Assembly: GCA_947499555.1 (NCBI GenBank)
Contig: CANMOU010000001.1
Coordinates: forward strand, 434,001-498,000
From: an uncultured Roseovarius sp.
GTDB lineage: Bacteria; Pseudomonadota; Alphaproteobacteria; Rhodobacterales; Rhodobacteraceae
DNA: 64,000 nucleotides
Reading direction: 5' to 3'
Shown here: positions 16,249 to 54,553 of the stretch, in pieces
How positions within the stretch are numbered: the first letter of the stretch is position 1
Layout of the letters: each line of letters begins with the position of its first letter
The notes under the pieces: generated by a model
Seen by the model: the letters and a program-made list of their open reading frames with translations, nothing else
What the model was told of the DNA's origin: nothing
Databases searched by the model: none
Made by a program: the position numbers and the translations under genes

Positions 16249-16279
16249 GTCTTTCATTACCTGTCTATTTTACCAATCG

Positions 16280-16394: not shown

Positions 16395-16592
16395 ATGGCA
16401 CACACTATCCTTTCCTTGATCCGCAACGGCGGGTCGGCACTGCGGTCTGCTTTTGAAGCGCAAGCCCTTGCCTCATCCCGGCGCGAAGCAATCGTGGCGC
16501 TGCAAGCCAAATCGGACGCAGAGCTGGCGCGCATGGGCATCAAACGCGACGAGATTGCGCAGCACGTCTTTCGGGACCTGTTCTACGCGTAA
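16395..16592 (+). CDS. DUF1127-like small protein
   Basis: A 65-residue basic protein starting at ATG 16395 with AGAGG upstream; the longer open frame runs into the preceding terminator. The C-terminal half (RREAIVALQAKSDAELARMGIKRDEIAQHVFRDLF) has the DUF1127 pattern of an Arg-rich helix, then L-x-x-M/L-G-I-x-R-x-D/E-I. In Rhodobacter sphaeroides a DUF1127 protein (CcaF1) has been described as an RNA-binding regulator, so a role in RNA turnover or stress is possible. It is the first of two such genes in the window (see 30898-31092). Confidence 0.65.
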   Translation: MAHTILSLIRNGGSALRSAFEAQALASSRREAIVALQAKSDAELARMGIKRDEIAQHVFRDLFYA

Positions 16593-16608
16593 ACCCTCAA
16601 AGACCGTC

Positions 16609-16640
16609 CCGGCTGGCGCGTGATCTGATGTGCCAGCCGG
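16609..16640 (+). terminator. Hairpin after the DUF1127-like gene
   Basis: A perfect 9-bp stem, CCGGCTGGC (16609-16617) with GCCAGCCGG (16632-16640), lies 17 bases after the stop codon. A weaker dyad (CACCGG..CCGGTG) with an internal TTTTT follows at about 16651-16683. A terminator is likely although no T-run follows the main stem directly. Confidence 0.45.
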
Positions 16641-16729
16641 ATGACGGGTTCACCGGCCCTGAGGATTTTTCCATGTGCCGGTGAGGGCTTCGCTTGACAC
16701 CGACACGGCCACCGGCCAACTCTGCGCGC

Positions 16730-19764: not shown

Positions 19765-19777
19765 GGTTCACCGCCTG

Positions 19778-19863
19778 TTTCTTTCTTGTCTGAAATACCC
19801 CGGGGAGCGCGAGGGGCTGGCCCCTCGCAAAAAGGTGCAGCGCGAGGGGCTGGCCCCTCGCAT
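19778..19863. repeat. Dispersed intergenic repeat, copy 2
   Basis: This matches copy 1 at 3204-3288: TTTCTTTCTTGTCTGAAATA, then CCCCGGGGAGCG, then two perfect CGAGGGGCTGGCCCCTCG dyads separated by the same AAAGGTGCAGCG linker. Both dyads are intact here, each a 7-bp stem with a CTGG loop. It again lies between convergent genes. Confidence 0.75.
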
Positions 19864-19886
19864 CCGTCGCCCGCTCTAAGCCCGGA

Positions 19887-40068: not shown

Positions 40069-40656
40069 ATGCCGAAGATTGGGATGGAACCGATTCGACG
40101 CTCAGCGCTTGTTGAAGCGACGATTAGCGAGATTGGTGAGCAGGGGTCGCTCGATGTGACGGTCAGCCAGATTGCCCGCCGCGCGGGTATGTCGAGTGCG
40201 CTGGCGCATCACTATTTCGGTTCGAAGGAACAGATCTTCGCCGCGGCCATGCGCCATATTCTGACGCTTTACGGCGCCGAGGTGCGTGGTGCAATGATCA
40301 TGGCCAAGACCCCACGCGACCGGATCGAAGCCATCGTTCGCGCAAGTTTCGCACCTGCGCAGTTTCGGCCCGAAATGGTGGCCGCCTGGCTCAATTTCTA
40401 CGTTCAGGCGCAGAAATCGGCAGAAGCGCGCAGGCTTTTGCACATCTACCAGCACCGGCTGCGTTCCAATCTTCACCACGCCTTTCGCCAGTTGGCCCCC
40501 ATGGATGCGCGGACATTGACACGTGGTCTCGCGGCGATGATCGACGGTTTGTATATCCGCCAGGCGCTGCACAAGGCACCGCTGTCAGGCGAAGAGGCCA
40601 TCAACGTGCTCTTGCATTACATCGACACATCTCTGTCGCAGGAACCACACGAATGA
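40069..40656 (+). CDS. betI: BetI, choline-responsive TetR-family repressor
   Basis: The 195-residue protein has the TetR helix-turn-helix (ALVEATISEIGEQGSLDVTVSQIARRAGMSSALAHHYFGSKEQIF quoted in parts; the HTH is at about 30-53) in the form characteristic of BetI (ALAHHYFGSKEQI). The C-terminal ligand domain contains FRPEMVAAWLNFYVQA, also typical. BetI represses bet genes until choline binds. It is the first gene of the operon betI-betC-gst-betA, with four-base or one-base overlaps throughout. A dyad ahead of the gene may be its operator. Confidence 0.92.
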   Translation: MPKIGMEPIRRSALVEATISEIGEQGSLDVTVSQIARRAGMSSALAHHYFGSKEQIFAAAMRHILTLYGAEVRGAMIMAKTPRDRIEAIVRASFAPAQFRPEMVAAWLNFYVQAQKSAEARRLLHIYQHRLRSNLHHAFRQLAPMDARTLTRGLAAMIDGLYIRQALHKAPLSGEEAINVLLHYIDTSLSQEPHE

Positions 40657-42161
40657 CACGGCCTAACATCCTGATTTTCATGGTGGATCAGCTGAACGGC
40701 ACGCTCTTTCCGGATGGGCCGGCCGATTGGCTGCATGCGCCAAATCTGAAAAAGCTCGCGGCACGCTCAACCCGGTTTGCCAATGCCTACACCGCCAGCC
40801 CGCTTTGCGCGCCGGGCCGAGCGAGCTTCATGTCGGGTCTACTGCCCTCGCGCAGCCGGGTCTATGACAACGCCGCCGAATTTGCCGCCGACATTCCAAC
40901 CTATGCGCATCACCTGCGCCGCGCGGGCTACCAGACCTGTCTTTCCGGGAAGATGCATTTTGTTGGCCCCGATCAATTGCACGGGTTTGAGGAACGCCTG
41001 ACCACCGACATCTATCCGGCGGATTTCGGCTGGACGCCGGATTACCGCAAGCCGGGGGAACGCATCGACTGGTGGTATCACAACATGAGCTCGGTCACCG
41101 GTGCAGGCGTGGCCGAGATCTCCAACCAGATGGAATATGACGATGAGGTGGCCTACAACGCGACCCGCAAGGTGTATGATCTGGCCCGTGGCAAAGATGC
41201 GCGTCCGTGGTGTCTGACGGTGAGCTTCACGCACCCGCACGACCCCTATGTGGCGCGCAGGAAATATTGGGATTTATATAGCAATTGCCAACACTTATTG
41301 CCCGACGTTCCCGCAATGAGCTACACGGATCACGACCCGCACGCACAGCGGATTTTTGACGCCAATGACTGGCGCAGTTTTGACATCACCGAAGACGATA
41401 TCCGCCGCTCCCGCCGCGCTTACTTCGCCAATATCTCTTATCTCGACGACAAGATCGGCGAGGTCATCGAGGCGCTTGAAACCACAAGGCAAGAGGCCGT
41501 GATCCTCTTTGTCTCCGATCACGGCGATATGTTGGGGGAACGGGGCCTTTGGTTCAAAATGTGCTTCTATGAGGGCTCGTCCCGCGTGCCTTTGATGATT
41601 TCAAGCCCCGATATGACACCGGGTCTTGTCACCGATCCGGTGAGCACCATCGATGTCTGCCCAACGCTCTGCGCGCTCGCAGGCGCCGATATGGAAGAGA
41701 TTGCGCCATGGACCACAGGCGAAAGCCTTGTTTATCTGGGCCAGGGTGGGTCGCGGGATGCCCCTGTCGCTATGGAATACGCCGCCGAGGCCTCCTACGC
41801 GCCGCTGGTGTCGCTGCGTTATGGCAAATGGAAGTACAACCGCTGCGCGCTCGATCCTGATCAGCTCTTTGATCTGGAGGCCGATCCGCATGAGCTGACC
41901 AATCTGGCGGACAGGCCAGAGCATGCTGGCACGCTGAGCCAGTTGCGTGCCAAATCCGAAGATCGCTGGGATCTAGATGCATTCGACGCGCAAGTCCGCG
42001 AAAGCCAGGCCCGCCGCTGGGTGGTCTATGAGGCATTGCGACAGGGCGGGTATTACCCATGGGATTACCAGCCGCTGCAAAAGGCATCGGAACGCTACAT
42101 GCGCAACCACATGGACCTAAACATTGTCGAGGAAAGTCAACGCTTTCCGAGGGGTGAGTGA
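40653..42161 (+). CDS. betC: Choline-sulfatase
   Basis: BetC hydrolyses choline-O-sulfate to choline and sulfate. The 502-residue sulfatase has the formylglycine signature SPLCAPGRASFMSG, Cys near residue 52 (the usual choline-sulfatase motif is CSPSR; here CAPGR, still C-x-P-x-R). Other sulfatase metal residues are MVDQLNG at the N-terminus and VSDHGDMLGERGLWFKMCFYEGSSRVPL near 285-315 (quoted in parts). The C-terminal region carries the Trp/Tyr-rich tail WVVYEALRQGGYYPWDYQPLQ typical of the family. A sulfatase-maturing enzyme is not in the window. Confidence 0.93.
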   Translation: MTRPNILIFMVDQLNGTLFPDGPADWLHAPNLKKLAARSTRFANAYTASPLCAPGRASFMSGLLPSRSRVYDNAAEFAADIPTYAHHLRRAGYQTCLSGKMHFVGPDQLHGFEERLTTDIYPADFGWTPDYRKPGERIDWWYHNMSSVTGAGVAEISNQMEYDDEVAYNATRKVYDLARGKDARPWCLTVSFTHPHDPYVARRKYWDLYSNCQHLLPDVPAMSYTDHDPHAQRIFDANDWRSFDITEDDIRRSRRAYFANISYLDDKIGEVIEALETTRQEAVILFVSDHGDMLGERGLWFKMCFYEGSSRVPLMISSPDMTPGLVTDPVSTIDVCPTLCALAGADMEEIAPWTTGESLVYLGQGGSRDAPVAMEYAAEASYAPLVSLRYGKWKYNRCALDPDQLFDLEADPHELTNLADRPEHAGTLSQLRAKSEDRWDLDAFDAQVRESQARRWVVYEALRQGGYYPWDYQPLQKASERYMRNHMDLNIVEESQRFPRGE

Positions 42162-42808
42162 TGTTGACAATCTACGGGCGCGCGACCTCTTCCAACGTTC
42201 AACTGGTTATGTGGGCGGTGGGTGAGCTTGGACTGTCATACGAGCGGCTGGATTATGGGCATGTGTATGGCGGCTTGGATACGGATGAATTCGCCGCTCT
42301 TAATCCGCATCGCAAAGTTCCCGTTCTGAAAGATGGTGATCTGGTCGTATGGGAAAGCGCGGCGATCCTGCGCTATCTGGCGGCAACCTATGCCGACGGA
42401 GGGGCCTTCTGGCCTGCGGATCCAGTCGCTCGCGCGCAAATCGACATGTGGGCCGAATGGGGAAAAATGGCCATGTGCCATTCCTTTACGGTCCCGATCT
42501 TCTGGTCACGGGTGCGGACAGCCGCCACTGACCGTGACAAGGTTGCGCTTGCCAAGGCTGTCGCCCATTTCGACGATCTGACCCATGTTCTCGCAAATCA
42601 GCTTCAAGATCAGACCTTTGTTTGTGGAAATGATCTGACCACAGCCGATATTGTCATCGGGCATCTGCTCTTTCGCTGGTTTGATATTGATGTGCCGCGC
42701 AGCGCGAATCCTGCCGTCGAAGCGTATTACCAACGTCTGGCGCAACGCCCTGCCTATCGTGAACATGTCATGGTCTCATACGAGCCGCTGCGGGTGGAGG
42801 GCGCATGA
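42161..42808 (+). CDS. Glutathione S-transferase family protein
   Basis: The 215-residue protein has an N-terminal thioredoxin-like GST fold ([30 protein letters not shown]), with [27 protein letters not shown] forming the glutathione-binding VPVL-cis-Pro and ESxAI motif. The C-terminal helical domain contains [14 protein letters not shown]. The catalytic Ser/Tyr is probably in TSSN near residue 10. It overlaps betC (one base) and betA (four bases), so it is a full member of the bet operon, an unusual position. It may detoxify an aldehyde or quinone by-product of choline oxidation; this is inference. Confidence 0.88.
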
Positions 42809-44463
42809 TGGAAGCCGAGTACGTCATCGTCGGTGCCGGCAGCGCAGGCTGCGCCATGGCCTACCGGCTGAGCGAGGCTGGCCATTCGGTGCTTGTGATC
42901 GAACATGGCGGCACGGATGCAGGCCCTTTCATTCAGATGCCCGGCGCGCTCAGCTATCCGATGAACATGAGCATGTATGACTGGGGCTACCGCACCGAGC
43001 CTGAGCCGCATCTGAACAATCGCTGTCTTGCCGCGCCTCGTGGCAAGGTCATAGGCGGCTCTTCGTCGATCAATGGCATGGTTTATGTGCGCGGCCACGC
43101 GCGGGACTTTGATCATTGGCGCGATCAGGGGGCTGATGGTTGGGGGTATGCCGATGTGCTGCCCTATTTCAAACGGCAGGAAAACTGGACCGATGGCGGC
43201 CATGGGGGCGATCCGGACTGGCGCGGGCGGGCTGGCCCGTTGCATGTGACACGCGGTGCGATGGCCAATCCGCTCACCCGGGCCTTTATCGAGGCGGGTG
43301 GGCAGGCGGGATACCAGATCACGTCCGACTACAATGGCCAGCAGCAAGAGGGCTTTGGGCCCTTTGAGATGACCGTGCACAAGGGCCAGCGCTGGTCGGC
43401 TGCCAATGCCTATCTCAAACCGGCGTTGAAGAATGGCAAATGTGATGTCATCCGTGGGCTGGCCGGGCGCGTGATCATCAAGGATGGCCGCGCCACCGGC
43501 GTTGAAATAACCCGCCAAGGCCAACGCGAGGTGATCGGCGCGCGCGCCGAGGTGATCCTCTCAGCTTCGGCGTTTAACACCCCGAAATTGCTTATGCTTT
43601 CCGGTATTGGCCCGGCCGCGCATCTTGCCGAACATCAGATCGACGTGATCGCGGATCGCCCCGGTGTGGGCGGCAACCTGCAGGACCATCTGGAGGTTTA
43701 TGTACAGATGGCCGCAAGCCAGCCGGTAAGCCTTTACAAATACTGGAACCTGCCAGGCAAGGCATTGGTAGGGCTCACCTGGCTTTTGGGCAAGACCGGG
43801 CCGGGCGCGTCGAACCAGTTTGAATCCTGCGGCTTCATCCGCTCGGACAGGGGTGTGGATTACCCCGATGTGCAGTTCCACTTCCTGCCCATCGCGGTGC
43901 GCTATGATGGGCAGGCGGCAGCAGAGGGGCACGGATTTCAGGCTCATGTCGGCCCTATGCGTAGCGAAAGCCGGGGCCGTGTGAGCCTGCGCTCGGGAAA
44001 TCCGGCGGACGCCCCGGTGATCAAGTTCAATTACATGAGCGAAGACAGCGACTGGCGCGATTTCCGCCGCTGCATCCGGCTCACGCGGGAAATTTTTGAG
44101 CAGGACGCGTTCAAACCCTTTGTGCGCCACGAAATACAGCCCGGCGCGGCGCTGCAATCGGATGATGAGATAGACGGCTTCATCCGCGAACACGCTGAAA
44201 GCGCCTACCACCCTTGCGGCACCTGCCGAATGGGGCGGGCAGATGACAAGGACGCCGTAGTGGACCCCGAGGGGCGCGTGATTGGCGTGGCTGGGCTGCG
44301 TGTCGCCGACAGCTCTGTCTTTCCGCGCATTCCCAACGGCAATCTCAACGCGCCCTCGATCATGGTGGGCGAGAAGATGGCCGATCATGTCCTGGGTCAG
44401 CACCTGCCAGCCGAGAATGCCGAACCGTGGATTCATCCGCATTGGAAAACCGCACAGCGGTGA
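42805..44463 (+). CDS. betA: Choline dehydrogenase
   Basis: BetA, an FAD-dependent GMC oxidoreductase, oxidises choline to betaine aldehyde. The 552-residue protein has the FAD motif [19 protein letters not shown] near 5-25, GMC signature 1 ([24 protein letters not shown]) near 84-106, signature 2 ([18 protein letters not shown]) and the C-terminal active-site region [12 protein letters not shown] near 470 with its catalytic His. It is the last gene of the bet operon. betB (betaine aldehyde dehydrogenase) does not follow and must be elsewhere if present; BetA can also oxidise the aldehyde. Confidence 0.93.
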
Positions 44464-44784: not shown

Positions 44785-44926
44785 AGCGTTGGGCGGTGGC
44801 TTTCAGCCCATTCTTCCGAATGCTGCGAGACGTTCGAATGTCCGACGTTGCACTTTTGTTTGTGTGTAGCGGAGGTCAGCTCAAATCAGATTTAGAAGAG
44901 GCCCACATTCGAAGACCACCTAAAAA

Positions 44927-45688
44927 TTAGCCTGATATTTTGGCATCCTGCGCCGGGTCCCAGCCCAAATTTGCAGACATTTCACGCGCAATATGGGAGA
45001 TCTGGGGACCAAGTTTTTCGCGGAACGCTGGCGTAAAGACCCGTACCGATCCGGTTGCACCGATGGACATCGTGGAACCTGGCCCGCTTGGCGCAAGAGG
45101 AGCTGCCACCGAACACATGCCGCGCTCAATCTCTTCCACGCATTCTGCGAAGCCGCGCTTGCGAATGGTGTCAAACTCGGCTTCCAAGTCCTGCACGTTT
45201 GTCAGGGTGAATTCGGTATAGGCGCGCAGCCGGCCTTCCATTTCGCCGGTTAAAAACAAGTCGGGTGAGAATGCGGCAACGGCCTTAGAGCAAGAACAGG
45301 CATGCAAGGGTCGTTTCCCTAAACCGGGATGGAGATAGGAGACCCCAGTGTCAGGTGTTTCAACGTGAATAATTTCCACGGATTTTCCGCGCAGACGGGA
45401 CAGGAAAAATGCGGTGCCATATTGTTTAGCGGCTTGCTTTAGCGCAGGCGCAATCACCTCAAGCAGTGCCCGGTCAGAGTGGTCACTTTTCGTGATCCGC
45501 TTCAGGCGGGAGCCGATTGTGAATGTACCACGGGAAACAGGTTCCAGAAGACCCACACCGACGAGGTCCTGCACCAACCGGTAGGCAGACGGCTTAGGCA
45601 GGTCAGAATGGGCGCAAATCTCAGCCACTGTTGCCTCGCCTTTTTGTGCAACAACTTCGAGGATGAAGGTCAGGCGTTCCAGGTGCAT
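44927..45688 (-). CDS. IclR-family regulator divergent from the sulfur cluster
   Basis: The product has 253 residues from the ATG at 45688, with AAGG eight bases upstream; an in-frame TTG at 45745 is less likely. The N-terminal winged helix (LERLTFILEVVAQKGEATVAEICAHSDLPKPSAYRLVQDLVG in parts) covers residues 1-60. The IclR effector domain follows, with GTAFFLSRLRGKSVEIIHVE, HACSCSKAVAAF and the C-terminal FGPQ-like region (VRVFTPAFREKLGPQISHIAREM). It is divergent from the methanethiol oxidase gene across 72 bases and is the obvious regulator of the eight-gene run. The inducer is unknown. HACSCSKA contains two Cys in the ligand pocket region. Confidence 0.9.
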   Translation of the reverse strand: MHLERLTFILEVVAQKGEATVAEICAHSDLPKPSAYRLVQDLVGVGLLEPVSRGTFTIGSRLKRITKSDHSDRALLEVIAPALKQAAKQYGTAFFLSRLRGKSVEIIHVETPDTGVSYLHPGLGKRPLHACSCSKAVAAFSPDLFLTGEMEGRLRAYTEFTLTNVQDLEAEFDTIRKRGFAECVEEIERGMCSVAAPLAPSGPGSTMSIGATGSVRVFTPAFREKLGPQISHIAREMSANLGWDPAQDAKISG

Positions 45689-45700
45689 ATTTTTACCTTG

Positions 45701-45730
45701 CGAGAATCTTTTTATCAGATTACGAGAATC
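45701..45730. promoter_or_regulatory. Direct repeat CGAGAATC in the IclR/mtoX divergent promoter region
   Basis: CGAGAATC occurs exactly at 45701-45708 and 45723-45730, 22 bases start to start (about two helical turns). It lies between the IclR start at 45688 and the methanethiol oxidase start at 45761. A dimeric or tetrameric regulator site is likely; IclR as the binder is inference from position. Confidence 0.5.
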
Positions 45731-45760
45731 CTCAAGTGATCGCAAGGGAGGATTGTGAAG

Positions 45761-47116
45761 ATGGACGGAGCATGTTGTGGCCCGGGGTATGCAAGCCCGG
45801 CCGAGGCGATCAAAGCGCCGCGTGAAAAACTGCTATACACCATCGCCATCTACACCGGGACCGGCATCCAGAAGCCTGACTATCTGGCGACGGTAGATGC
45901 AGATCCCGAAAGCCCCACTTATTCACAAGTCATCCATCGCTTAGAGATGCCCGGCATCGGGGATGAGTTGCATCACATGGGTTGGAATGCCTGTTCTTCC
46001 TGCCACGACGACGCGGGTATGAGCCGTAACTACCTGCTGGTGCCAGGCGTGCGGTCCAACAATATCCATGTGATCGACACAGCGACGGACCCGTTTGCAC
46101 CGCGCCTTCATAAGGTGATTGACGGGGCCGAGATCAAGTCAAAAACCAATCTGAGCGGCCCGCACACGGTGCATTGTCTGGGCTCTGAGATCATCATTTC
46201 CTTCCTAGGAGACGCACAGGGCGAAGCGCCCGGTGGCTATCTGCACCTCAACAAAGAATTCGAGATCGTTGGTCGTTGGGAAAACTCAATGGGCGATATC
46301 CCCTTCGGCTATGATTTTTGGTACCAGCCGCGCCACAACGTGATGGTCAGTTCGGAATGGGCGGCCCCCAACACATTCATGCCAGGGTTTGATCTGGAGG
46401 AAGTGGGCCACCTGAAATACGGTCGCCGCCTGCACATCTGGGATTTTGAGAAAAAGGTGCCGGTCGAGACGATGTATCTCGGCGAAGACGGCCTGATCCC
46501 GTTGGAAGTAAAGTTTCTGCATGATCCCGACAGTTCGCATGGGTTCTGCGGTGCCGCGCTCAGCGCCAATGTCATCCATTTCTGGAAGTCCGAAGCAGGG
46601 AAATGGGAATGGGAAAAAATCATTGATGTGGAGAATGAGCCGCATCCCGAATGGCCGATCCCCGTTCCCGGAGTGATGTCGGCCATCCTTGTATCGATGG
46701 ACGACAAATACCTCTACCTCAACAACTGGCTGCATGGCGATATGCGCCAATACGACATCTCTGATCCGCATAAACCGGTACTGACGGGGCAGGTCTGGAT
46801 GGGCGGGCTTTTGGGTAAAGCGCCCGAGGTCAACGGTGTCAAAGTGGCAGGCGGGCCGCAGATGTATCAGCTCTCGCTTGATGGCAAGCGGCTCTATGTC
46901 ACGACCTCGCTGTTCTCGACCTGGGACAACCAATTCTATCCAGAGATACGCACGCAGGGTGGCGTCATGCTGATGATCGACTGTGATGTCGAAAACGGCG
47001 GTATGAAAATCAACGAAGATTTCGTTGTTGATTTCGGCCAGGAACCAAATGGCCCCAGTCGTTGCCATGAAACCCGCTATCCCGGTGGCGACTGCACAAG
47101 CGACATCTGGCTGTGA
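45761..47116 (+). CDS. mtoX: SBP56 / methanethiol oxidase, cytosolic type
   Basis: The 451-residue protein is a selenium-binding-protein-56 homolog, a family shown to oxidise methanethiol to formaldehyde, H2O2 and H2S in Hyphomicrobium and humans. It closely follows the animal SELENBP1 pattern: CCGPGYASPAEAIKAPRE, IHRLEMPGIGDELHHMGWNACSSC (in parts), GYDFWYQPRHNVMVSSEWAAP, NNWLHGDMRQYDISDP, AGGPQMYQLSLDGKRLY and RYPGGDCTSDIW. There is no signal peptide, whereas the Hyphomicrobium enzyme is periplasmic. The ATG at 45761 (GGGAGG upstream) is chosen over the GTG at 45755. The stop overlaps the ferredoxin start. Confidence 0.88.
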   Translation: MDGACCGPGYASPAEAIKAPREKLLYTIAIYTGTGIQKPDYLATVDADPESPTYSQVIHRLEMPGIGDELHHMGWNACSSCHDDAGMSRNYLLVPGVRSNNIHVIDTATDPFAPRLHKVIDGAEIKSKTNLSGPHTVHCLGSEIIISFLGDAQGEAPGGYLHLNKEFEIVGRWENSMGDIPFGYDFWYQPRHNVMVSSEWAAPNTFMPGFDLEEVGHLKYGRRLHIWDFEKKVPVETMYLGEDGLIPLEVKFLHDPDSSHGFCGAALSANVIHFWKSEAGKWEWEKIIDVENEPHPEWPIPVPGVMSAILVSMDDKYLYLNNWLHGDMRQYDISDPHKPVLTGQVWMGGLLGKAPEVNGVKVAGGPQMYQLSLDGKRLYVTTSLFSTWDNQFYPEIRTQGGVMLMIDCDVENGGMKINEDFVVDFGQEPNGPSRCHETRYPGGDCTSDIWL

Positions 47117-47481
47117 GCGAGACGCGCACCATCACAATCGCCAACCGCGATGATGCGACCTATCAGGTCGACGCCCGCCGTCCGTTGCTGGACGCTTTGC
47201 GCGAACAGGGTGTCGATCTGCCCTATGGCTGCAAATACGGCGGCTGCATCACCTGTGCTGCCAAATTGACCTCTGGCGAAGTGGATCAGCGCCGCCAGGT
47301 GGCGTTGAACAATCGCCAGATCAACAATGGCTATGTCTTGCTGTGTGTGGCCCGCGCTTTGAGCGATTGCACTTTGGAGATTGGCGTCGAAAGCCACGAC
47401 AAACTTTATCGCAACCCCTTCCTTGATCCGCTGGAGCCGCATGAGCTCAAGGCGGACATCGCGACCCCTAAGGAGGCCTAG
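47113..47481 (+). CDS. Plant-type [2Fe-2S] ferredoxin in the sulfur cluster
   Basis: The 122-residue protein has the cluster motif YGCKYGGCITCAAKL (C-x4-C-x2-C, Cys near 36, 41, 44) with the fourth Cys in VLLCVARAL near 74. This spacing is that of plant-type/phthalate-dioxygenase-reductase ferredoxins. The C-terminus extends past the core (NPFLDPLEPHELKADIATPK). It starts with GTG in an overlap of four bases with mtoX. It may pass electrons to or from an oxygenase-type step; no partner reductase is in the cluster. Confidence 0.88.
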   Translation: MSETRTITIANRDDATYQVDARRPLLDALREQGVDLPYGCKYGGCITCAAKLTSGEVDQRRQVALNNRQINNGYVLLCVARALSDCTLEIGVESHDKLYRNPFLDPLEPHELKADIATPKEA

Positions 47482-47946
47482 ATGCCCGAAGCCGACATAG
47501 ATCATCTGTATCACTACGCGCCGGAATATCTGGCGGAGATCCTGCGTTCGGTCAAAACCATTGCGATGGTGGGCGCCAGTGGCGACAAGACCAAGTTCAG
47601 CTATGGCGTGCTGCGTGTGCTGCACGAAACCGGCTACGACATGATCCCGGTGAACCCAAACCCAAAGCTGACCGAAATCCGCGGCATACCTGTCGTTCAT
47701 TCGCTGGAAGAGATCGACCGGCCCGTGGATATGGTTGAGGTATTCCGCCCGAAAGAAGAGTTATACGCGATCACCGAGAAAGCCATTGCAATCGGCGCCA
47801 AGGTGCTCTGGGGACAAATCGGGGTTTATGATGACCGCGCGGCGAAACTGGCCGAAGAAGCAGGCCTGAAAGTGGTGATGAACCGCTGCCCCAAGATCGA
47901 GCTGTTCCGCCCGTTCTGGAAGCCCCGTCTTGACCTCGCGATTTGA
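47482..47946 (+). CDS. CoA-binding (YccU-like) protein
   Basis: The 154-residue protein has a Rossmann-type CoA_binding_2 domain: TIAMVGASGDKTKFSYGVLRVLHETGYDMIPVNPNP (in parts) near 25-60, VDMVEVFRPKEEL and KVLWGQIGVYDDRAAKLAEEAGLKVVMNRCPKIE (in parts), with the family's conserved Cys near 144 in NRCPKIE. Such proteins bind CoA and are often in CoA-thioester operons. It starts directly after the ferredoxin stop and precedes the rhodanese gene. Confidence 0.85.
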   Translation: MPEADIDHLYHYAPEYLAEILRSVKTIAMVGASGDKTKFSYGVLRVLHETGYDMIPVNPNPKLTEIRGIPVVHSLEEIDRPVDMVEVFRPKEELYAITEKAIAIGAKVLWGQIGVYDDRAAKLAEEAGLKVVMNRCPKIELFRPFWKPRLDLAI

Positions 47947-48068
47947 CTGAGAGCGGCACAGAAACTCATGTGGCCTCTGCTTGTGCTTGCGGGTGTAGCG
48001 GGCCCCTGGACTGGCCGCTCACCGCAATACTGGACTGGTTTAAAACCAATCGAAAAAGGAAACCAAAC

Positions 48069-48458
48069 ATGGCTCAGACGATCACCAAAAGCGTGAAAGA
48101 CATCGTAAAGGCGGCCTTGTCAGCGGTGCCAGCGATCAGTGCCGACGAGGCATTGGCCTTGGTAGGCTCGCCCGATCACGTTTTTGTCGATCTGCGCGAT
48201 GGCACGGAACAGGTCAAAACCGGTGTCATTGCGGGTGCCATAACGTCGTCGCGCGGCATGATGGAATTTCATATCGACCCGGAAAGTCCGGCGCACAAGC
48301 CGGAGTTCAATCAAGATAAGACTTACGTGTTCTATTGTGCATCGGGTGGGCGTTCTGCCATGGCGGCGGTGGTGGCCATGGAAATGGGGCTGTCGCCCGT
48401 TGTGAACCTGACCGGAGGCGTTGGCGCCTGGAAAAAGGCCGGGGGCGCGCTGGAGTAA
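48069..48458 (+). CDS. Rhodanese-domain sulfurtransferase
   Basis: The 129-residue single-domain rhodanese starts at ATG 48069 with AAGGA upstream. The active-site loop is YCASGGRSA with the catalytic Cys near 90 (C-A-S-G-G-R-S, a rhodanese pattern). HVFVDLRDGTEQVKTGVIAGAI gives the first half of the fold. It would transfer sulfane sulfur between thiols, feeding or draining the persulfide dioxygenase encoded three bases downstream. A 13-base palindrome TGGTTTAAAACCA (48037-48049) lies upstream, a possible processing or operator site. Confidence 0.88.
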   Translation: MAQTITKSVKDIVKAALSAVPAISADEALALVGSPDHVFVDLRDGTEQVKTGVIAGAITSSRGMMEFHIDPESPAHKPEFNQDKTYVFYCASGGRSAMAAVVAMEMGLSPVVNLTGGVGAWKKAGGALE

Positions 48459-48461
48459 ATC

Positions 48462-49358
48462 ATGGAACCTTCAACAAATTTCCCAAATCTCAACATGGCA
48501 ACAAAGCCTGAGGTCGAAGGATTTTTTGATCCCGCAAGCAATACGATTTCCTATGTCGTCAAAGACCCCGCAACAGGCGCCTGTGCGATCATCGACAGCG
48601 TTTTGGACATGGATTATGCAGCAGGGCGGATCACCTACGACAGTGCGGATCGTTTGATTGACGCCATTCAGACCCAAGATTTGTCACTGGAATGGATCAT
48701 CGAAACGCATGTCCATGCCGATCACCTGTCTGCGGCACCCTATATTCAGGGTAGGCTGGGTGGCAAAATCGGTGTGGGCGCAGGCATCAAGGAAATTCAG
48801 GACACCTTCGGCAAGATTTTCAATGAAGGTACAGAATTTCAACGCGATGGGTCGCAGTTTGATGCTTTGTTCGAGGATGGCGACACCTACTCCATTGGCG
48901 AAATGACCGCCTTTGTGATTGCCACGCCGGGCCACACACCCGCCTGCATGGTGCATGTGATTGGCGACGCCGCCTTTGCCGGTGACACGCTCTTTATGCC
49001 CGACGGCGGCTCTGCGCGCGCTGATTTCCCAGGGGGTGATGCAGGGCAGCTTTACGATTCCATCCAAACGGTGCTGAGCCTGCCGGACGAGATGCGCCTG
49101 TTCATCTGCCACGACTATGGTCCCGGTGGGCGCGCCATTGCCTGGGAGACCACCATTGGCCAGCAACGCGCCGACAACATCCATGTGGGTGCTGGCAAAT
49201 CGCGCGAAGATTTCATCAAGTTCCGCACCGAGCGTGACGCACAACTGGCGATGCCCAAACTGATTATTCCGTCTCTGCAAGTGAATATGCGGGCGGGTGA
49301 AATCCCGTGCGACGAAAGTGGCGCGCCGATGCTGAAAGTTCCACTCAATGGCTTATGA
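48462..49358 (+). CDS. Metallo-beta-lactamase-fold persulfide dioxygenase-like protein
   Basis: The 298-residue protein has the MBL motif THVHADHLSAAPYIQ near residues 81-95, ATPGHTPACMVHVIGDAAFAGDTLFMPDGGSAR (in parts, second His and Asp ligands) and FICHDYGPGGRAIAWETTIGQQRADN (in parts, third His). The layout matches ETHE1/Blh-type proteins that oxidise glutathione persulfide to sulfite, or bind sulfide-derived thiols. In the cluster it would remove the sulfur released by the methanethiol oxidase. The C-terminus (LIIPSLQVNMRAGEIPCDESGAPMLKVPLN, in parts) is the subfamily tail. It is preceded by the rhodanese and followed by the enoyl-CoA hydratase. Confidence 0.85.
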   Translation: MEPSTNFPNLNMATKPEVEGFFDPASNTISYVVKDPATGACAIIDSVLDMDYAAGRITYDSADRLIDAIQTQDLSLEWIIETHVHADHLSAAPYIQGRLGGKIGVGAGIKEIQDTFGKIFNEGTEFQRDGSQFDALFEDGDTYSIGEMTAFVIATPGHTPACMVHVIGDAAFAGDTLFMPDGGSARADFPGGDAGQLYDSIQTVLSLPDEMRLFICHDYGPGGRAIAWETTIGQQRADNIHVGAGKSREDFIKFRTERDAQLAMPKLIIPSLQVNMRAGEIPCDESGAPMLKVPLNGL

Positions 49359-49365
49359 GGGCGAA

Positions 49366-50166
49366 ATGCAAAACGATGATCTGATCTTGCGGACCGACAC
49401 CGATGGCGTTGCCGTTCTGACTCTGAACGCGCCCAAGTCGATTAATGCGTTGTCAGAGGCGATGCTACGCGCTCTGTCAGACACATTTGACCAAATCGCA
49501 GAAGATCGCAGTGTCAAAGCGGTAATCCTGCGTAGCGGCGGGAACCACTTTTGTGCCGGTCATAACCTCAAAGAAATGTCAGCGCGCAGGGCGGATGCCG
49601 ACGGTGGATTTCAGTATTTCCAAGACCTGTTTGCCACATGTTCGGCGATGATGCTTCGGGTGGTGCGATTGCCCCAACCGGTAATCGCCGAGGTCAAGGG
49701 GATTGCCACAGCGGCGGGGTGTCAGCTTGTTGCGTCCTGTGATCTGGCGGTGGCCGCCGACAACGCAACCTTCGCGACATCAGGCGTGAACATCGGACTG
49801 TTCTGCTCAACCCCTATGGTCGCGCTTTCCCGGAATGTCCCGCGCAAGATGGCGATGGAGATGCTGCTATTGGGGGAATTCCTGCCCGCCGCACGTGTCG
49901 CTGAAATGGGCTTGGTGAACCGAGTGGTCCCTTTGTCAGAGCTCGAAACAACTTCCATGGAGATGGCCCGTATCATCGCTGACAAATCCCCTTCGGCCGT
50001 CAAAATCGGCAAGCGGGCCTTTTATGAGCAGGCCGAAATGCCTTTGGAAGAGGCCTATGCCTTTGCCGGTCGCACGATGGCGGAAAACATGATGGCAAAA
50101 GACGCCGAGGCCGGTATCGGCGCCTTCACCCGCAAAGAACCGATGCCGGAATGGACCGGGGAATGA
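49366..50166 (+). CDS. Enoyl-CoA hydratase/isomerase family protein (ECHDC3-like)
   Basis: The product has 266 residues from the ATG at 49366, with GAGGG five bases upstream; an ATG at 49348 overlaps the preceding gene. It is a crotonase-fold protein: HFCAGHNLKEMSARRADADGGF, VIAEVKGIATAAGCQLVASCDLAVA, and FATSGVNIGLFCSTPMVALSRN. In standard hydratases two Glu (rat crotonase E144 and E164) are catalytic. The first aligns here with Gly in FATSGV, while MAMEMLLLGE keeps the second. This matches ECHDC3 proteins, whose reaction is unclear. In this context a DmdD-like or acryloyl-CoA step is possible. It may not hydrate classical substrates. Confidence 0.85.
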   Translation: MQNDDLILRTDTDGVAVLTLNAPKSINALSEAMLRALSDTFDQIAEDRSVKAVILRSGGNHFCAGHNLKEMSARRADADGGFQYFQDLFATCSAMMLRVVRLPQPVIAEVKGIATAAGCQLVASCDLAVAADNATFATSGVNIGLFCSTPMVALSRNVPRKMAMEMLLLGEFLPAARVAEMGLVNRVVPLSELETTSMEMARIIADKSPSAVKIGKRAFYEQAEMPLEEAYAFAGRTMAENMMAKDAEAGIGAFTRKEPMPEWTGE

Positions 50167-51773
50167 TGTACGAGGGCGCGGAGCTTGCCCGTAACGCAGC
50201 AAACCACACGGCCCTGTCACCAGTCTCGATCCTCAAACGCGTCGAGCGCGTGCATCCAGAGCTTCCGGCGCAATTCCATGGCCGCATCCGGCGCAACTGG
50301 GGCGAGGTTGCAGTACGGTGCAAACGTCTGGCCTCTGCCCTGGCACAACGCGGTATCGGCAAGGGCGATACCGTTGCCCTGATCGCGCCGAACATCCCCG
50401 AGGCGCTGGAATGCGCACTGGCTGTACCTATGCTGGGTGCGGTTCTGAACGCCAACAACACAAGGCTGGATGCAGGCACGATCGCTTATATTCTGGACCA
50501 CGGTGAAGCGAGGGTTCTGCTGGTCGATACCGAATTTTCGGCGGTTGCAGCCGAAGCGATTGCGCAGTCGGGTCGTGACCTTTTGATCGTCGATATCGAA
50601 GATAGCGAAGGACCGGGCGGCGAGAAAATCGGCGCACTGACCTATGATGCCCTGCTGGCCGAGGGCGACGCGGACTTCGCCTATGCCCTACCGGATGACG
50701 AATGGGATGCACTTGTCCTGAACTATACCTCTGGCACCACAGGACGGCCCAAGGGCGTTGTCTATTCCCATCGCGGTGCCTGGACCAATGCGGTCAACAA
50801 CGTCGTCACCTGGGAAATGCCGCATCATCCGGTCTACCTTTGGACGTTGCCACTGTTTCACTGCAACGGCTGGTGTTTTCCCTGGACCATCACCATGCTT
50901 GCCGGAACCCATGTGTTCCTGCGCGCGCCCCGGGCCGATGCGATCTATGATGCCTTTGCAGATCACGGTGTCACCCATCTGTGCGGCGCGCCGATCATCA
51001 TGTCGATGATCTCGAGCGCGGCGGAGAAACGCGGCTTTCCGCAAAAGATAAAGATGATGACCGCCGCCGCCCCTCCGCCTGCCAGCGTGATCGCGGGGAT
51101 GGAGGCGATGGGTATTTCTATCACGCACGTCTATGGCCTGACCGAAGTCTATGGCCCGGCCGTTGTTTGCGCGGAGAAACCCGATTGGGCAGCACTGCCA
51201 CCGGAAGAACAGGCAAGCCTGAAAGCCCGCCAAGGCGTCGCGTATGAATTGCAGGAAGACGTGCTGGTTCTGAACCCCGACACCGGCGAGCCAGTTCCAT
51301 GGGATGGCGAAACGTTGGGCGAGATTGTGTTTCGCGGCAACATCGTCATGAAGGGCTATCTGAAAGCGCCCGAAGAGACTGCCAAAGCCTTCAAGGATGG
51401 CTGGTTCTGGTCAGGCGACATCGCGGTGCAGCACACCGATGGCTATATCGAGATCCGGGATCGGTCCAAAGACATCATCATCTCGGGCGGGGAAAACATT
51501 TCGTCCATCGAGGTGGAAAAGGCGCTTTATTCGCACCCTGCCGTCAGCCTCTGTGCCGTCGTGGCGATGCCGGACGAGAAATGGGGCGAAGTGCCTTGCG
51601 CCTTTGTCGAGCTTTCCGGCGAGGCCACGGAGAATGAGCTTCTAGCCCATGCCAAGACCCGCCTTGCCGGCTACCAACGCCCCAAGAAAGTGATTTTCGG
51701 CGAACTGCCCAAAACCACCACCGGGAAAATCCGCAAAAACGAACTCCGCGATTTGGTCCGCCCGAAAAGCTGA
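50166..51773 (+). CDS. AMP-forming acyl-CoA synthetase (DmdB-like)
   Basis: The 535-residue enzyme of the ANL superfamily has AMP-binding motif YTSGTTGRPKGVVYSHRG near 187-204, HVYGLTEVYGPAVVC, the hinge WFWSGDIAVQHTDGYIEIRDRSKDIIISGGENISS (in parts, near 417-445) and the catalytic Lys in PKTTTGKIRKNELR near 526. This subtype is shared with the methylmercaptopropionyl-CoA ligase DmdB and fatty-acyl ligases. In the cluster it probably activates a short-chain or methylthio acid to its CoA thioester. The start lies in the TGATG overlap with the preceding stop. Confidence 0.85.
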   Translation: MYEGAELARNAANHTALSPVSILKRVERVHPELPAQFHGRIRRNWGEVAVRCKRLASALAQRGIGKGDTVALIAPNIPEALECALAVPMLGAVLNANNTRLDAGTIAYILDHGEARVLLVDTEFSAVAAEAIAQSGRDLLIVDIEDSEGPGGEKIGALTYDALLAEGDADFAYALPDDEWDALVLNYTSGTTGRPKGVVYSHRGAWTNAVNNVVTWEMPHHPVYLWTLPLFHCNGWCFPWTITMLAGTHVFLRAPRADAIYDAFADHGVTHLCGAPIIMSMISSAAEKRGFPQKIKMMTAAAPPPASVIAGMEAMGISITHVYGLTEVYGPAVVCAEKPDWAALPPEEQASLKARQGVAYELQEDVLVLNPDTGEPVPWDGETLGEIVFRGNIVMKGYLKAPEETAKAFKDGWFWSGDIAVQHTDGYIEIRDRSKDIIISGGENISSIEVEKALYSHPAVSLCAVVAMPDEKWGEVPCAFVELSGEATENELLAHAKTRLAGYQRPKKVIFGELPKTTTGKIRKNELRDLVRPKS

Positions 51774-51803
51774 TCCCCCATCACATAAAACTGGATACAC
51801 GTC

Positions 51804-52958
51804 ATGTCCCACGAACTTAACTTTGCCCAATTCAGCTTTGGCACGCAGGTGCGAAAATCCCCTTATTCCGACGCCGCTTTACGTTGGGGGGCCAAGGGAT
51901 TTTCCGTCTACAACCACATGTACATCCCGCGCGATTTTGGCGATCCGCATCAGAACTTCTGGAACCTCGTCAATGAGGCGATCCTGTGTGACGTCTCTGT
52001 CGAGCGTCAGGTCGAGATCAAAGGACCGGACGCGGCAAAGTTTACCCAATTCCTCAGTTGTCGTGACCTGTCTAAATGCCAGGTTGGACAATGCAAATAT
52101 GTGCTGATCACCGACCAGCACGGCGGGATAATCAATGACCCGATCCTGTTGAAACTGGCCGAGGATCATTTTTGGCTGTCCATTGCCGACAGTGACGTCC
52201 TGCTCTGGGCGCGCGGCATTGCAGTGAATTCCGGCATGGATGTGGAGATTTCCGAGCCCGATGTGTCGCCGTTGCAGCTGCAAGGCCCCAAGTCCCGCGA
52301 CGTCCTGCGCGCAGCCTTTGGCGATGCCCCGACCGAGCTTAAATATTACCGGTTCATGGAATTTGACTGGGGCGGTGTGCCTTTGATTATTTCACGCACC
52401 GGATGGTCAAGCGAGCTTGGTTACGAGATTTTCCTGCGCGATGGATCACAAGGTGACAGGCTTTGGGAACATCTGATGGCCGTTGGCACACCTTTGGGTC
52501 TCAAGCCTGGCCATACATCGAGCATTCGCAGGATCGAGGCGGGCATGTTGTCATACCACGCGGATATGAACCTTGCGAACAACCCCTATGAGCTGGGCAT
52601 GGGGCGTCTTGTCGATCTGGACATGGAGGCTGATTTTGTCAGCAAGGCGGCCTTAACCAAGATCAAGGAACAGGGCGTGTCACAACAGCTTGTCGGTCTG
52701 GAAATTGACGGTGATCCTTTTATCGGATCCAATGATTTCTTTTGGCCCATTATGAAGGATGGCGAGCAGGTCGGTACAGTCACGTCTGCGATCTATTCCC
52801 CGAGACTGGAAAAAAACATCGCACTTGCGATGATCAGCATCGACTACGCAGCATCAGGCAGGGCACTACAGGTAGATAAGTTGAACGAAACGCGTACGTG
52901 CACAGTCGTGCCGATTCCGTTTTACGACCCGAAGAAATCGCTTGCCTCAGCGAGCTGA
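51804..52958 (+). CDS. GcvT-family THF methyltransferase resembling DMSP demethylase DmdA
   Basis: The 384-residue protein has the aminomethyltransferase (GcvT/DmdA) fold. It follows DmdA closely in N-terminal RKSPYSDAALRWGAKGFSVYNHMYIP, ERQVEIKGPDAAKF, LSCRDLSKCQVGQC, DSDVLLWARGIA, DVSPLQLQGPKS and RTGWSSELGYEIF (DmdA has SGWSKQGG there). The C-terminus has RRIEAGMLSYHADMNLANNPYELGMG. DmdA transfers a methyl of DMSP to THF giving methylmercaptopropionate. The substitution of KQGG by SELG and the changed GHTSSI segment leave the substrate uncertain; it could be a paralog for another S- or N-methyl donor. Last gene of the operon. Confidence 0.8.
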   Translation: MSHELNFAQFSFGTQVRKSPYSDAALRWGAKGFSVYNHMYIPRDFGDPHQNFWNLVNEAILCDVSVERQVEIKGPDAAKFTQFLSCRDLSKCQVGQCKYVLITDQHGGIINDPILLKLAEDHFWLSIADSDVLLWARGIAVNSGMDVEISEPDVSPLQLQGPKSRDVLRAAFGDAPTELKYYRFMEFDWGGVPLIISRTGWSSELGYEIFLRDGSQGDRLWEHLMAVGTPLGLKPGHTSSIRRIEAGMLSYHADMNLANNPYELGMGRLVDLDMEADFVSKAALTKIKEQGVSQQLVGLEIDGDPFIGSNDFFWPIMKDGEQVGTVTSAIYSPRLEKNIALAMISIDYAASGRALQVDKLNETRTCTVVPIPFYDPKKSLASAS

Positions 52959-53152
52959 ATGGACCGCTGCATGGGTTTAGTCGCCTGCGCGGCGAAGCGT
53001 TTCCCGCCAATGCAGTCCGCGTTATAAAATACGGAGCATAAGTGATTTCCGTGACTACGATCATAGAAAACGACGGTTTCGTGTTGCCGAATTGGAAGCG
53101 GAAATTGGTGCATATCTCAGCGAAAGTTAACAAAGTCCCACTTAACCGCCAT

Positions 53153-54553
53153 TCACCCCACCTTATAGGGCAGCACTCCACGTTCATCGGGTGTCACCTG
53201 CAGCCGTCGCTCCAGCGGCGGCACTGATCTTTGGTGGCAATCCGTGCGTTCGCAAATTCGGCAGGAAATTCCAATCGGCTCGAATGCGCGGGCGTTGCCC
53301 AGATCCAGATCATCAGCATAGACCAGTGCATCGGCATGGCGCACCTCGCACCCCAACGCCACGGCAAAGCGCCGCACGGGCGCGCCGAAATGGCCACCTG
53401 ATTTGCTCACATCCCGGGCTAGGCTGATGTAACGCACGCCATCGGGTGTCTCGGCCAGTTGCCGCAGGAAACGGCCCGGTGTCTCGAACGCCCGGTGGAC
53501 ATTCCACAGCGCACAGGCTCCACCAAACCGGGCAAATTGCAGCCGTGTGGCCGAGTGCCGCTTGGTGATCGTGCCCGCCTGATCCACGCGCACGAAGAAA
53601 AACGGCACACCTTTGGCCCCGGGTCGTTGCAGCGTGGATAGCCTGTGGCAAACCTGCTCAATCGACGCGCCAAACCGCGTGGCCAGCACCTCCAGATCAT
53701 GTCTATGCGTCTGAGCCGCCCGCAGAAACGCACCATAGGGCATCAACGCCGCCCCGGCGAAATAGTTGGCGAGGCCAATTTTGGCGATGGAGCGCGCCGC
53801 CTCGGTCTGAAATCGCGCCAGATCAAGCGTGGCCTCCAAGAGCTTATCCTGCGTCAGAAGCGCAAGCTGCAACAGTATCTGAAAAGTTCGGGTTTCCGGC
53901 GCGGCCAGGGTAGAGAGATAAAGAATCCCTTCCTGCGCATCAAAGCGGCGCAGATATGGCCCGTCACTGGCGGCAATCTTGATCCCAAGCTGGGCCAACC
54001 GCGCCTCGGCCAGGTCCCGGATATGCCGGGGATCTTCCGTGCCAGAGGCGAAATGTTCCGCCGCGCGATCCACCGCGTCGATGTAATTGTCGCAGTAATG
54101 AAAGAAATCGCGCACCTCATCCCAAGGGCTGGTCTGAATGCGCGCATCCTCTCGCCCCAATGCCTCATCAAGGCTGGCCAGCCGCTCATGGGTTTCGCGA
54201 TAGGCTCGGTGCAATTCCAGAAACGCGCGCGCCAGCGCCGGAGCATTCGACGCGGTCAGACGCAGGTCGCTGACAGGCGGCATATCATCGGCAAAGACCG
54301 GATCGGCGAGCGCCTCGCGCATGTCGCTTACCAATCGCTCTGAATCTGCGCTACTGAGCTCTGTGACATCAAAGCCAAATTCCTGCGCCAGGGCCAAAAC
54401 CACGGTCGTGCTGATCGGGCGCTTGTTGTTTTCCATCTGGTTGAGGTAGGGCAGGGAAATCCCTAATTTCTCGGCAAAATCTTTCTGTGTGAGGGTCAGC
54501 GTCCGACGCATGTCCCGCAGTTTCACACCGGCGTAAAGTTTCTGAGCGCGCAT
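53153..54553 (-). CDS. pccR: PccR/ScfR, short-chain acyl-CoA-responsive XRE regulator
   Basis: The 466-residue protein has an XRE helix-turn-helix at about residues 13-60 (MRRTLTLTQKDFAEKLGIS, LPYLNQMENNKRPISTT), a middle ImmA/IrrE-like domain, and the C-terminal short-chain fatty-acyl domain with conserved Cys (GISCRICERTDCHQRSVPPLERR in parts). This arrangement is the ScfR family, of which PccR controls propionyl-CoA carboxylase in Rhodobacter sphaeroides. Its position one gene group from pccB fits. TTTGCAAA-type octamers lie 13-42 bases from its start codon, suggesting autoregulation. It converges on the DmdA-like gene with a 194-base gap. Confidence 0.9.
   Translation of the reverse strand: MRAQKLYAGVKLRDMRRTLTLTQKDFAEKLGISLPYLNQMENNKRPISTTVVLALAQEFGFDVTELSSADSERLVSDMREALADPVFADDMPPVSDLRLTASNAPALARAFLELHRAYRETHERLASLDEALGREDARIQTSPWDEVRDFFHYCDNYIDAVDRAAEHFASGTEDPRHIRDLAEARLAQLGIKIAASDGPYLRRFDAQEGILYLSTLAAPETRTFQILLQLALLTQDKLLEATLDLARFQTEAARSIAKIGLANYFAGAALMPYGAFLRAAQTHRHDLEVLATRFGASIEQVCHRLSTLQRPGAKGVPFFFVRVDQAGTITKRHSATRLQFARFGGACALWNVHRAFETPGRFLRQLAETPDGVRYISLARDVSKSGGHFGAPVRRFAVALGCEVRHADALVYADDLDLGNARAFEPIGISCRICERTDCHQRSVPPLERRLQVTPDERGVLPYKVG

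Follow-up and report, generated by a model that had tools for sequence, protein, structure and literature searches.

A putative mobile cassette linking a second clade of DmdA-like demethylases to methanethiol oxidation in Roseovarius

Known pathways and the Roseovarius operon

The turnover of the algal compound dimethylsulfoniopropionate (DMSP) governs how much reduced sulfur escapes from the ocean as gas. In the DmdABCD route of Ruegeria pomeroyi and Pelagibacter, a tetrahydrofolate (THF)-dependent demethylase, an acyl-CoA ligase and a crotonase-fold enzyme lead to methanethiol. We analyzed a window of 64,000 nucleotides (the whole stretch of DNA studied, positions 434,001 to 498,000 of contig CANMOU010000001.1) from an uncultured Roseovarius sp. 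(assembly GCA_947499555.1), in which an eight-gene operon combines enzymes of these kinds with an SBP56-family protein, a predicted methanethiol oxidase, and with putative persulfide enzymes. It differs from DmdABCD by a demethylase of another clade, which we name DmdA2, a ligase of the PRK08162 subfamily, a crotonase devoid of the catalytic glutamates, the lack of DmdC in the operon and the built-in oxidation of methanethiol. We consider it probable that this operon is a mobile, IclR-controlled cassette mineralizing DMSP or a very close dimethylsulfonio-carboxylate in parallel to the canonical route of the same genome.

Other described systems share parts of this composition. The dmdA-acuH-dmdB run of SAR92 H231 (PMC10746254) has collinear counterparts of DmdA2 (68% identical), the CoA-binding protein (50%), the crotonase (57%) and the ligase (55%), but in a different gene order, and the SBP56 protein, ferredoxin, rhodanese, dioxygenase and IclR regulator give no hit in that locus (L263). 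In R. pomeroyi, an IclR gene also adjoins an SBP56-family methanethiol oxidase in the mtoX operon (SPOA0268-0272), described as methanethiol-inducible; however, MtoX belongs to another SBP56 clade and its reported partners are SCO1 and MauG, not a ferredoxin, a rhodanese and a dioxygenase. The oxidases RdMTO and RlMTO (Cao et al. 2024, PMC10936201) have three cysteine motifs at nearly equal spacing, but their genes were studied singly, and the main text of that paper mentions neither an operon, nor a gene cluster, nor a rhodanese. Plasmid pMaD9 of Marinovum algicola carries an acyl-CoA synthetase, a DmdA and an SBP56 gene in one run (MALG_05023-05029); there, however, the demethylase is a canonical DmdA (680.8 bits for a cut-off of 410), the oxidase is of a second clade, SBP56-B (83%), a gene of the alcohol dehydrogenase family lies in between, and no crotonase or persulfide genes are annotated in the run. 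In the mitochondrial-type sulfide unit (SELENBP1, rhodanese and ETHE1), a methanethiol oxidase, a rhodanese and a persulfide dioxygenase likewise act one after another, whereas here they stand in one bacterial operon, coupled upstream to methyl-sulfur catabolism and without a sulfide:quinone oxidoreductase (SQR) gene in the operon.

The eight open reading frames (ORFs) named in the initial annotation, all in one direction and faced by an IclR gene, were all present on re-inspection on the plus strand (45761-52958, with the divergent IclR gene upstream), and profile searches agreed with the eight product families given there. Successive genes overlap by 4 bases or are separated by 0-30 bases, with the single exception of 122 bases ahead of the rhodanese gene; the spacing noted initially (gaps under 31 bases and one of 122) thus held after the starts of the IclR, SBP56, rhodanese, crotonase and ligase genes were reset to those of the annotated copy on plasmid pP30_b of Phaeobacter inhibens P30. 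The features are as follows.

44805-53139, no strand: 8.3-kb cassette common to the window and conjugative plasmid pP30_b (single blastn alignment)
44927-45688, minus strand: IclR-family regulator (PF01614 and PF09339; start taken from the 96%-identical P30 copy)
45689-45760, no strand: IclR-SBP56 intergenic region, putative control region, with direct repeat CGAGAATC
45761-47116, plus strand: SBP56 protein, predicted cluster-1 methanethiol oxidase (PF05694, 681.2 bits; alternative GTG start at 45755)
47113-47481, plus strand: [2Fe-2S] ferredoxin, Fer2 (PF00111, 61.6 bits)
47482-47946, plus strand: CoA_binding_2 protein (PF13380, 124.4 bits), presumably YccU-like
48069-48458, plus strand: rhodanese, predicted sulfane-sulfur carrier (PF00581, 55.4 bits; start from P30)
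48462-49358, plus strand: MBL-fold protein, persulfide-dioxygenase-like (C-terminal part of Blh model NF040641, 368.6 bits)
49366-50166, plus strand: crotonase-fold protein of the ECHDC3/PRK08139 type (PRK08139, 390.2 bits for a cut-off of 313)
50163-51773, plus strand: AMP-forming acyl-CoA synthetase, PRK08162 subfamily (825.8 bits for a cut-off of 677)
51804-52958, plus strand: DmdA2, predicted THF-dependent sulfonium demethylase (GCV_T family; PRK12486, 377.5 bits for a cut-off of 410)

In the proposed route, DmdA2 would transfer one S-methyl group to THF, the synthetase would convert the resulting methylthio acid to its CoA ester, and the unusual crotonase would take part in methanethiol release, possibly after oxidation by a DmdC-type dehydrogenase encoded elsewhere. 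SBP56 would then turn methanethiol into formaldehyde and an enzyme-bound persulfide, the rhodanese would hand the sulfane sulfur on to a thiol of low molecular weight, and the MBL-fold dioxygenase would oxidize this thiol-bound sulfur to sulfite. The ferredoxin and the CoA-binding protein would be accessory, the former likely as electron carrier of the oxidase/persulfide part and the latter probably as an auxiliary protein. We infer which compound is the substrate, how the crotonase acts, what these two proteins, the rhodanese and the dioxygenase do, and that IclR senses methanethiol, whereas the gene content, the demethylase clade, the residues, the linkage and the recurrence on a conjugative plasmid were observed directly.

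Recurrence and linkage of the two modules

The region 44805-53139 aligned over 8336 columns, in one blastn alignment and with 88.76% identity, to pP30_b (13003-21337 of the fetched locus), a plasmid typed as conjugative. The plasmid copy contains the same nine genes in unchanged order, and the similarity ends a little beyond the IclR and DmdA-like genes. Roseovarius albus also has the complete set, with 93-98% protein identity for the eight genes (best pieces) and 89% for IclR. Because the same order recurs on pP30_b and in R. albus, the arrangement is more than chance, and its recurrence on a conjugative plasmid suggests that the cassette is mobile. Reduced forms of the set, lacking either the dioxygenase alone or the dioxygenase together with the rhodanese, are present in records named Roseicyclus, Tateyamaria, Pararhodobacter, Alterinioella and others. 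SBP56, Fer2, CoA-binding, crotonase, ligase and DmdA-like genes were collinear in 10 of the 79 tabulated loci (the best 78 of 577 confirmed candidates plus the pP30_b locus). The initial annotation had named an absence of the gene set from related genomes as an argument against its proposal; the set is instead kept in relatives, and the synteny search that it proposed, for SBP56 beside DmdA-like genes, revealed their linkage in several arrangements.

Each half of the operon has its own conserved neighborhood. Among 40 SBP56 loci surveyed (33 of the window type and 7 of the SBP56-B clade), the window-type gene was followed by the ferredoxin gene in 32/33 (Fer2 absent in L161) and adjoined by the CoA-binding gene in 29/33 (absent in L167-L170). 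Many DmdA-like relatives have an Lrp regulator gene upstream and genes for OsmC, crotonase and ligase downstream (one survey of these neighborhoods did not cover L093, L094, L095 and L098); a unit of this kind, with an Lrp/AsnC regulator, a DmdA-like protein, OsmC, an enoyl-CoA hydratase and an acyl-CoA synthetase, lies on pP30_b itself, ~9 kb from the cassette. The crotonase-ligase pair occurs in both modules, even where just one of them is at hand, and we therefore take it to connect demethylation with the oxidation of methanethiol.

DmdA2 was detected in 48 of 295 genomes of the family (matches of at least 62% identity, counting two broken copies in G187 and G246), and in 11 of these 48 it lies in the same fetched locus as an SBP56 gene, of the window type in 7 (window included) and of the SBP56-B clade in 4, both lower bounds as contig ends truncate several of the loci. 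Simple arithmetic (~20 kb of 3.7 Mb per copy) predicts less than one such case by chance. At least four arrangements exist: SBP56-A (window type) upstream and collinear, SBP56-A downstream with its own IclR gene (L081), SBP56-B downstream and collinear (L056, L071), and SBP56-B in the opposite orientation (L073, L097). At the genome level, in statistics that ignore phylogenetic relatedness, 33 of the 48 genomes with DmdA2 had some SBP56 (15.0 expected; Fisher p 6.6e-9, 295 genomes) and 15 had the window type (6.5 expected, p 0.00036), the latter counted at 66% identity or more and including a broken copy in G014 and fragments in G056, G139 and G160. Since canonical DmdA also co-occurs with SBP56 (66/117 genomes, p 4.7e-14; 117 of 125 genomes kept, 8 weak matches being left out), we split the DmdA2 counts by its presence. 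In genomes without canonical DmdA, SBP56 was found in 9/17 with DmdA2 and 17/161 without (p 8.7e-5); in those with canonical DmdA the association was weaker (24/31 vs 42/86, p 0.006). Of the two kinds of evidence, physical linkage is the stronger.

These distributions bear on the possibility that the DmdA-like gene rides as a passenger on a methanethiol/persulfide detoxification module (SBP56, ferredoxin, CoA-binding protein, rhodanese and dioxygenase) that would be the true functional unit, with crotonase, ligase and DmdA2 serving unrelated acyl-CoA or C1 metabolism. The 33 window-type SBP56 loci, which had been chosen as not DmdA2-adjacent, show no DmdA2 within 9 kb, and 25 of the 40 genomes with window-type SBP56 have no DmdA2. 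However, crotonase and ligase genes follow the SBP56 module even without an adjacent DmdA2 (L140, L141, L144, L147), a second such pair follows DmdA2 where SBP56 is missing, so that the pair joins both halves, and DmdA2 is linked to two SBP56 clades in several different ways, all of which makes a passenger quite improbable. The idea, put forward initially, of one package joining THF-dependent demethylation, CoA-thioester chemistry, methanethiol oxidation and persulfide handling is thus borne out by its conservation in relatives.

Novelty resides in the combination of these eight genes in one mobile unit, in the tie between DmdA2 and cluster-1 oxidases with persulfide enzymes, and in the glutamate-free crotonase. 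The enzyme types are already known and a relative of the demethylase was tested elsewhere (identified by elimination, see below), so the cassette does not constitute a new category. We found no description of the eight-gene operon in titles or the beginnings of abstracts of open-license papers, a search that does not show its absence from print.

The demethylase, its substrate and methanethiol release

In a tree of 65 rows (L098, L099 and L180 not included), the 5 DmdA rows grouped together (support 100/100) and so did the 48 DmdA2 rows (95/76 as a fork), although Pelagibacter ubique and several other rows had long branches, the root was uncertain and some supports were weak. The window protein accordingly falls, by sequence, in a clade separate from DmdA. 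The canonical dmdA of this genome sits elsewhere (681.3 bits for the PRK12486 cut-off of 410), followed by an acuI-looking gene (judged by reading, without family search), and this separate copy rules out that the operon gene is the canonical one. Trp W171 of DmdA has been reported as key to DMSP binding (PMC7487153), and the corresponding Trp201 of DmdA2 (placed by alignment, W171 being mapped by offset) was kept in 134/134 tblastn hits of at least 60% identity; in this and the other tblastn counts given here, overlapping loci (e.g., L055, L209) repeat some genes. This residue is not decisive, as a canonical DmdA (L022) carries Tyr at the same position.

The most direct functional evidence comes from SAR92. 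Its dmdA genes, 37.9-40.2% identical to R. pomeroyi DmdA, are reported to restore methanethiol production in an R. pomeroyi dmdA mutant, the H231 gene to 37.2% of the wild-type production from DMSP, and DMSP to raise their transcription (PMC10746254). Among the H231 homologs of the canonical DmdA of our genome, one (G295:C3:266758-267816) showed 39% identity and all others 23-26%. It is the DmdA2 of L263, and, being the sole homolog that matches the reported range, it is by elimination, though not by accession, the likely tested gene. It also scores below the PRK12486 cut-off (373.7 vs 410 bits); therefore, provided that the tested gene is correctly identified, functional demethylases escape this cut-off, and the capacity for DMSP demethylation would be undercounted as the standard model overlooks a second demethylase clade. 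The acuH and dmdB of that work presumably correspond to the L263 crotonase and ligase. A CoA-binding gene lies between DmdA2 and crotonase in this and two other gammaproteobacterial loci (L256, L257). The initial proposal that the DmdA-like protein helps release methanethiol from DMSP can be kept in part: the protein lies outside the DmdA clade and below its cut-off, but DMSP is the best substrate guess because this 68%-identical relative was tested.

The two genes between the demethylase and methanethiol are less easily placed. Taken initially as DmdB, the acyl-CoA synthetase misses the cut-off of the methylmercaptopropionate (MMPA)-CoA ligase model PRK07008 (287.8 vs 822 bits) and passes that of PRK08162, which rules out this assignment. 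The crotonase, likewise taken as DmdD, aligned with human ECHDC3 (2vx2, E 1.8e-62) and, position by position, with a canonical hydratase; it has Gln126 and Gly146 (numbered from the ORF start at 49348) where DmdD has Glu121 and Glu141. DmdD is reported to require both glutamates, E121A abolishing its activity, and not to release methanethiol from methylthiopropionyl-CoA (PMC3660561). With both replaced, the identification as DmdD is excluded, and neither the operon crotonase nor its SAR92 neighbor (the presumed acuH) is likely to work as DmdD. Judging from these residues, the methanethiol-releasing step is not explained by DmdD chemistry, and if our reading is true it raises the question of how a glutamate-less crotonase serves methanethiol release.

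DmdC, initially described as the missing step, is indeed outside the operon, but a DmdC-type dehydrogenase is encoded elsewhere in the genome and may not even be needed. Its best Protein Data Bank (PDB) hit is 6ijc, which we take to be DmdC; the genome also encodes a ligase with best hit 6ihk, presumably DmdB, which misses the PRK07008 cut-off (707.9 vs 822 bits). The presence of DmdC failed as a discriminator, since 33/35 genomes were positive at E 1e-100 regardless of DmdA2 (17/18 with and 16/17 without, the G136 copy being only 42% identical). In a 99% complete genome with a DmdA2-OsmC-crotonase-ligase unit (G268, L082), no PF12806 dehydrogenase was found, which does not exclude other acyl-CoA dehydrogenases. 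A tentative, rather unlikely variant is thus a dehydrogenase-free demethiolation bypassing both DmdC and DmdD, in which the glutamate-less crotonase would split methanethiol directly off methylthioacyl-CoA (with methylthiopropionyl-CoA this would be a beta-elimination yielding acryloyl-CoA, a compound that AcuI could then reduce) and methanethiol would be channeled via the persulfide-making oxidase into rhodanese and dioxygenase. We retain it because the unit has no DmdC, because of G268 and because of the constancy of the Gln/Gly pair given below.

Several observations weigh against the assignment of the cassette to DMSP. The window protein misses the cut-off of the DMSP demethylase model, and in the tree other lineages separate DmdA2 from the DmdA of P. 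ubique and roseobacters. The H231 cultures are reported to yield no detectable methanethiol from DMSP (PMC10746254), and, although the gene order given in the same source is dmdA-acuH-dmdB-dmdC, in L263 DmdA2, CoA-binding, crotonase and ligase genes are followed by an unrelated gene and not by dmdC, the DmdC-type genes of H231 lying elsewhere in its genome. None of the eight operon genes encodes a dehydrogenase or a transporter. Gln and Gly occupy the two crotonase positions in 81/81 tblastn hits covering both, the SAR92 copy included. No SBP56 gene lies in the fetched locus of 37/48 DmdA2 genes, and in 15 of the 48 DmdA2-bearing genomes the search, at its threshold, gave no match to any SBP56. 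Finally, distant relatives have other neighbors, namely folate genes beside the Lichenihabitans copy and HisD-, SnoaL- and MetE-like genes in L219 and L231; since DmdA2 relatives in other taxa occupy such different contexts, the clade may act on several substrates.

These flanking genes widened the substrate question, and the transporters beside DmdA2 in relatives do not settle it, being mixed (TRAP in L058 and L075, oligopeptide ABC in L065). With the downstream route unchanged, the substrate could be a sulfonium or methylthio compound other than DMSP, for instance dimethylsulfonioacetate (DMSA), while canonical DmdA handles DMSP. A second DMSP set looks redundant in a genome already endowed with canonical DmdA, the 6ihk-like ligase and the 6ijc-like dehydrogenase; pP30_b carries two DmdA2 units; and R. 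pomeroyi is reported to make methanethiol from DMSA by an unknown route, DMSA not being accepted by DmdA according to work cited in the same paper (PMC7221440). On the other hand, the SAR92 H231 relative acts on DMSP in the reported complementation (PMC10746254), DmdA2 and SBP56 also coexist in genomes without canonical DmdA, and nothing ties DmdA2 directly to DMSA, so we regard this alternative as unlikely. Even less probable, to the point of being very doubtful, is that DmdA2 is a GcvT-type demethylase of N-methyl or O-methyl compounds, with SBP56 in another role. GcvT-type enzymes do use many methyl donors, DmdA2 scored 238.4 bits with the trimethylamine N-oxide (TMAO) demethylase model (missing its cut-off of 1100), and C1 genes flank the Lichenihabitans relative. 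However, its SBP56, rhodanese and persulfide-dioxygenase neighbors are sulfur enzymes, and Trp201 holds the place of the reported DMSP-key residue in every hit.

Some DmdA2 relatives have neighborhoods of interest in their own right. A 55%-identical relative from a lichen-associated bacterium (L198 8618-13185) lies on a conjugative plasmid beside genes for methylene-THF reductase, PurU and FolD, so that methyl groups perhaps enter C1 metabolism on land. Three Marinobacterium contigs (L235, L236, L238) bear two DmdA2 genes a few kb apart together with an Lrp gene, and a gene with a formyltransferase domain adjoins one of them (L235). A set of HisD-like, LacI, SnoaL, MetE-like and alpha/beta-hydrolase genes is shared by L199 (9463-17347), L219 (3836-9803) and L231 (3715-9845); it adjoins canonical DmdA and SBP56-B in the first (Marinovum pMaD9) and DmdA2 in the other two, which are alphaproteobacterial, and may represent a pathway tied to both demethylase clades.

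Sulfur oxidation, regulation and neighboring genes

The window SBP56 protein has Cys78, Cys139 and Cys445 in the motifs GWNAC, HTVHC and GGDC, with a spacing of 61/306 close to the 61/305 calculated for RdMTO from its residue numbers, whereas the cysteines of SBP56-B (76/140/456) match the RlMTO numbering exactly. All three were present in 51/53 window-type tblastn hits (two with Val at the third position) and in 18/18 sufficiently long SBP56-B hits. MtoX, a candidate identity for this protein, was ruled out (NF052453, 151.5 bits for a cut-off of 650). Three representatives of the cluster-1 methanethiol oxidases with these motifs are reported to give sulfane sulfur, and no H2O2 was detected with RpMTO (PMC10936201), whereas earlier work had assumed H2S and H2O2 as products. 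The initial annotation had followed the older scheme (H2S, formaldehyde and H2O2), which, according to that report, does not hold for oxidases with the same motifs. Two reactions of the proposed route, demethylation (through the presumed DmdA2 member of SAR92) and the formation of sulfane sulfur, are known from relatives by others' work and would apply here by analogy.

The rhodanese active-site Cys (FYCASGG) was kept in 20/20 tblastn hits covering the position. The MBL-fold protein matched only positions 134-422 of the Blh model, falling short of the full model (368.6 vs 625 bits). Its PDB relatives are 9g8t, 4efz, 4ysk and ETHE1 (4chl), of which we take 4ysk to be a persulfide dioxygenase, and HxHADH, GHT and GDT motifs, presumably binding metal, are visible in the alignments. 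There is no SQR gene in the operon, the rest of the genome not having been searched for one. A rhodanese and a persulfide dioxygenase without SQR are what a sulfane-sulfur product would call for, and this gene content supports the claim that these oxidases yield sulfane sulfur rather than H2S. If the cassette works as proposed, DMSP demethylation could spread as one unit, on a conjugative plasmid, with little methanethiol escaping. The same genome has a second SBP56 gene, of the SBP56-B clade (G000:C4:118792-120168), followed by one for a 219-aa membrane protein; the latter accompanies SBP56-B in 7/7 loci (L172-L178), and a homolog had no Pfam match.

In R. pomeroyi, mtoX and the adjoining IclR gene are both reported to be induced by methanethiol (PMC5739008), which suggests, by analogy, that the IclR regulator of the cassette responds to methanethiol or to the pathway. 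Pairs of GAGAATC/ACGAGAA-like words occur in several of 34 aligned IclR-SBP56 intergenic regions (including those of the window, L054, L055, L140, L146 and L209) and are a possible regulator site. No inverted repeat or operator palindrome was found in the intergenic region 45689-45760, sigma-70-like promoters showed no excess (3 found vs 4.1 expected), and the terminator scan remained at or below chance.

Two neighboring regions complete the locus. To the right of the cassette, 53153-54553 (minus strand) encodes an HTH/IrrE-like regulator with a ScfRs domain (PF09856), of the short-chain acyl-CoA regulator type. To its left, 40069-44463 encodes a TetR-type regulator, a sulfatase, a glutathione-S-transferase-like protein and a GMC oxidoreductase, which, as read from their translations, look like a set for choline-O-sulfate use.

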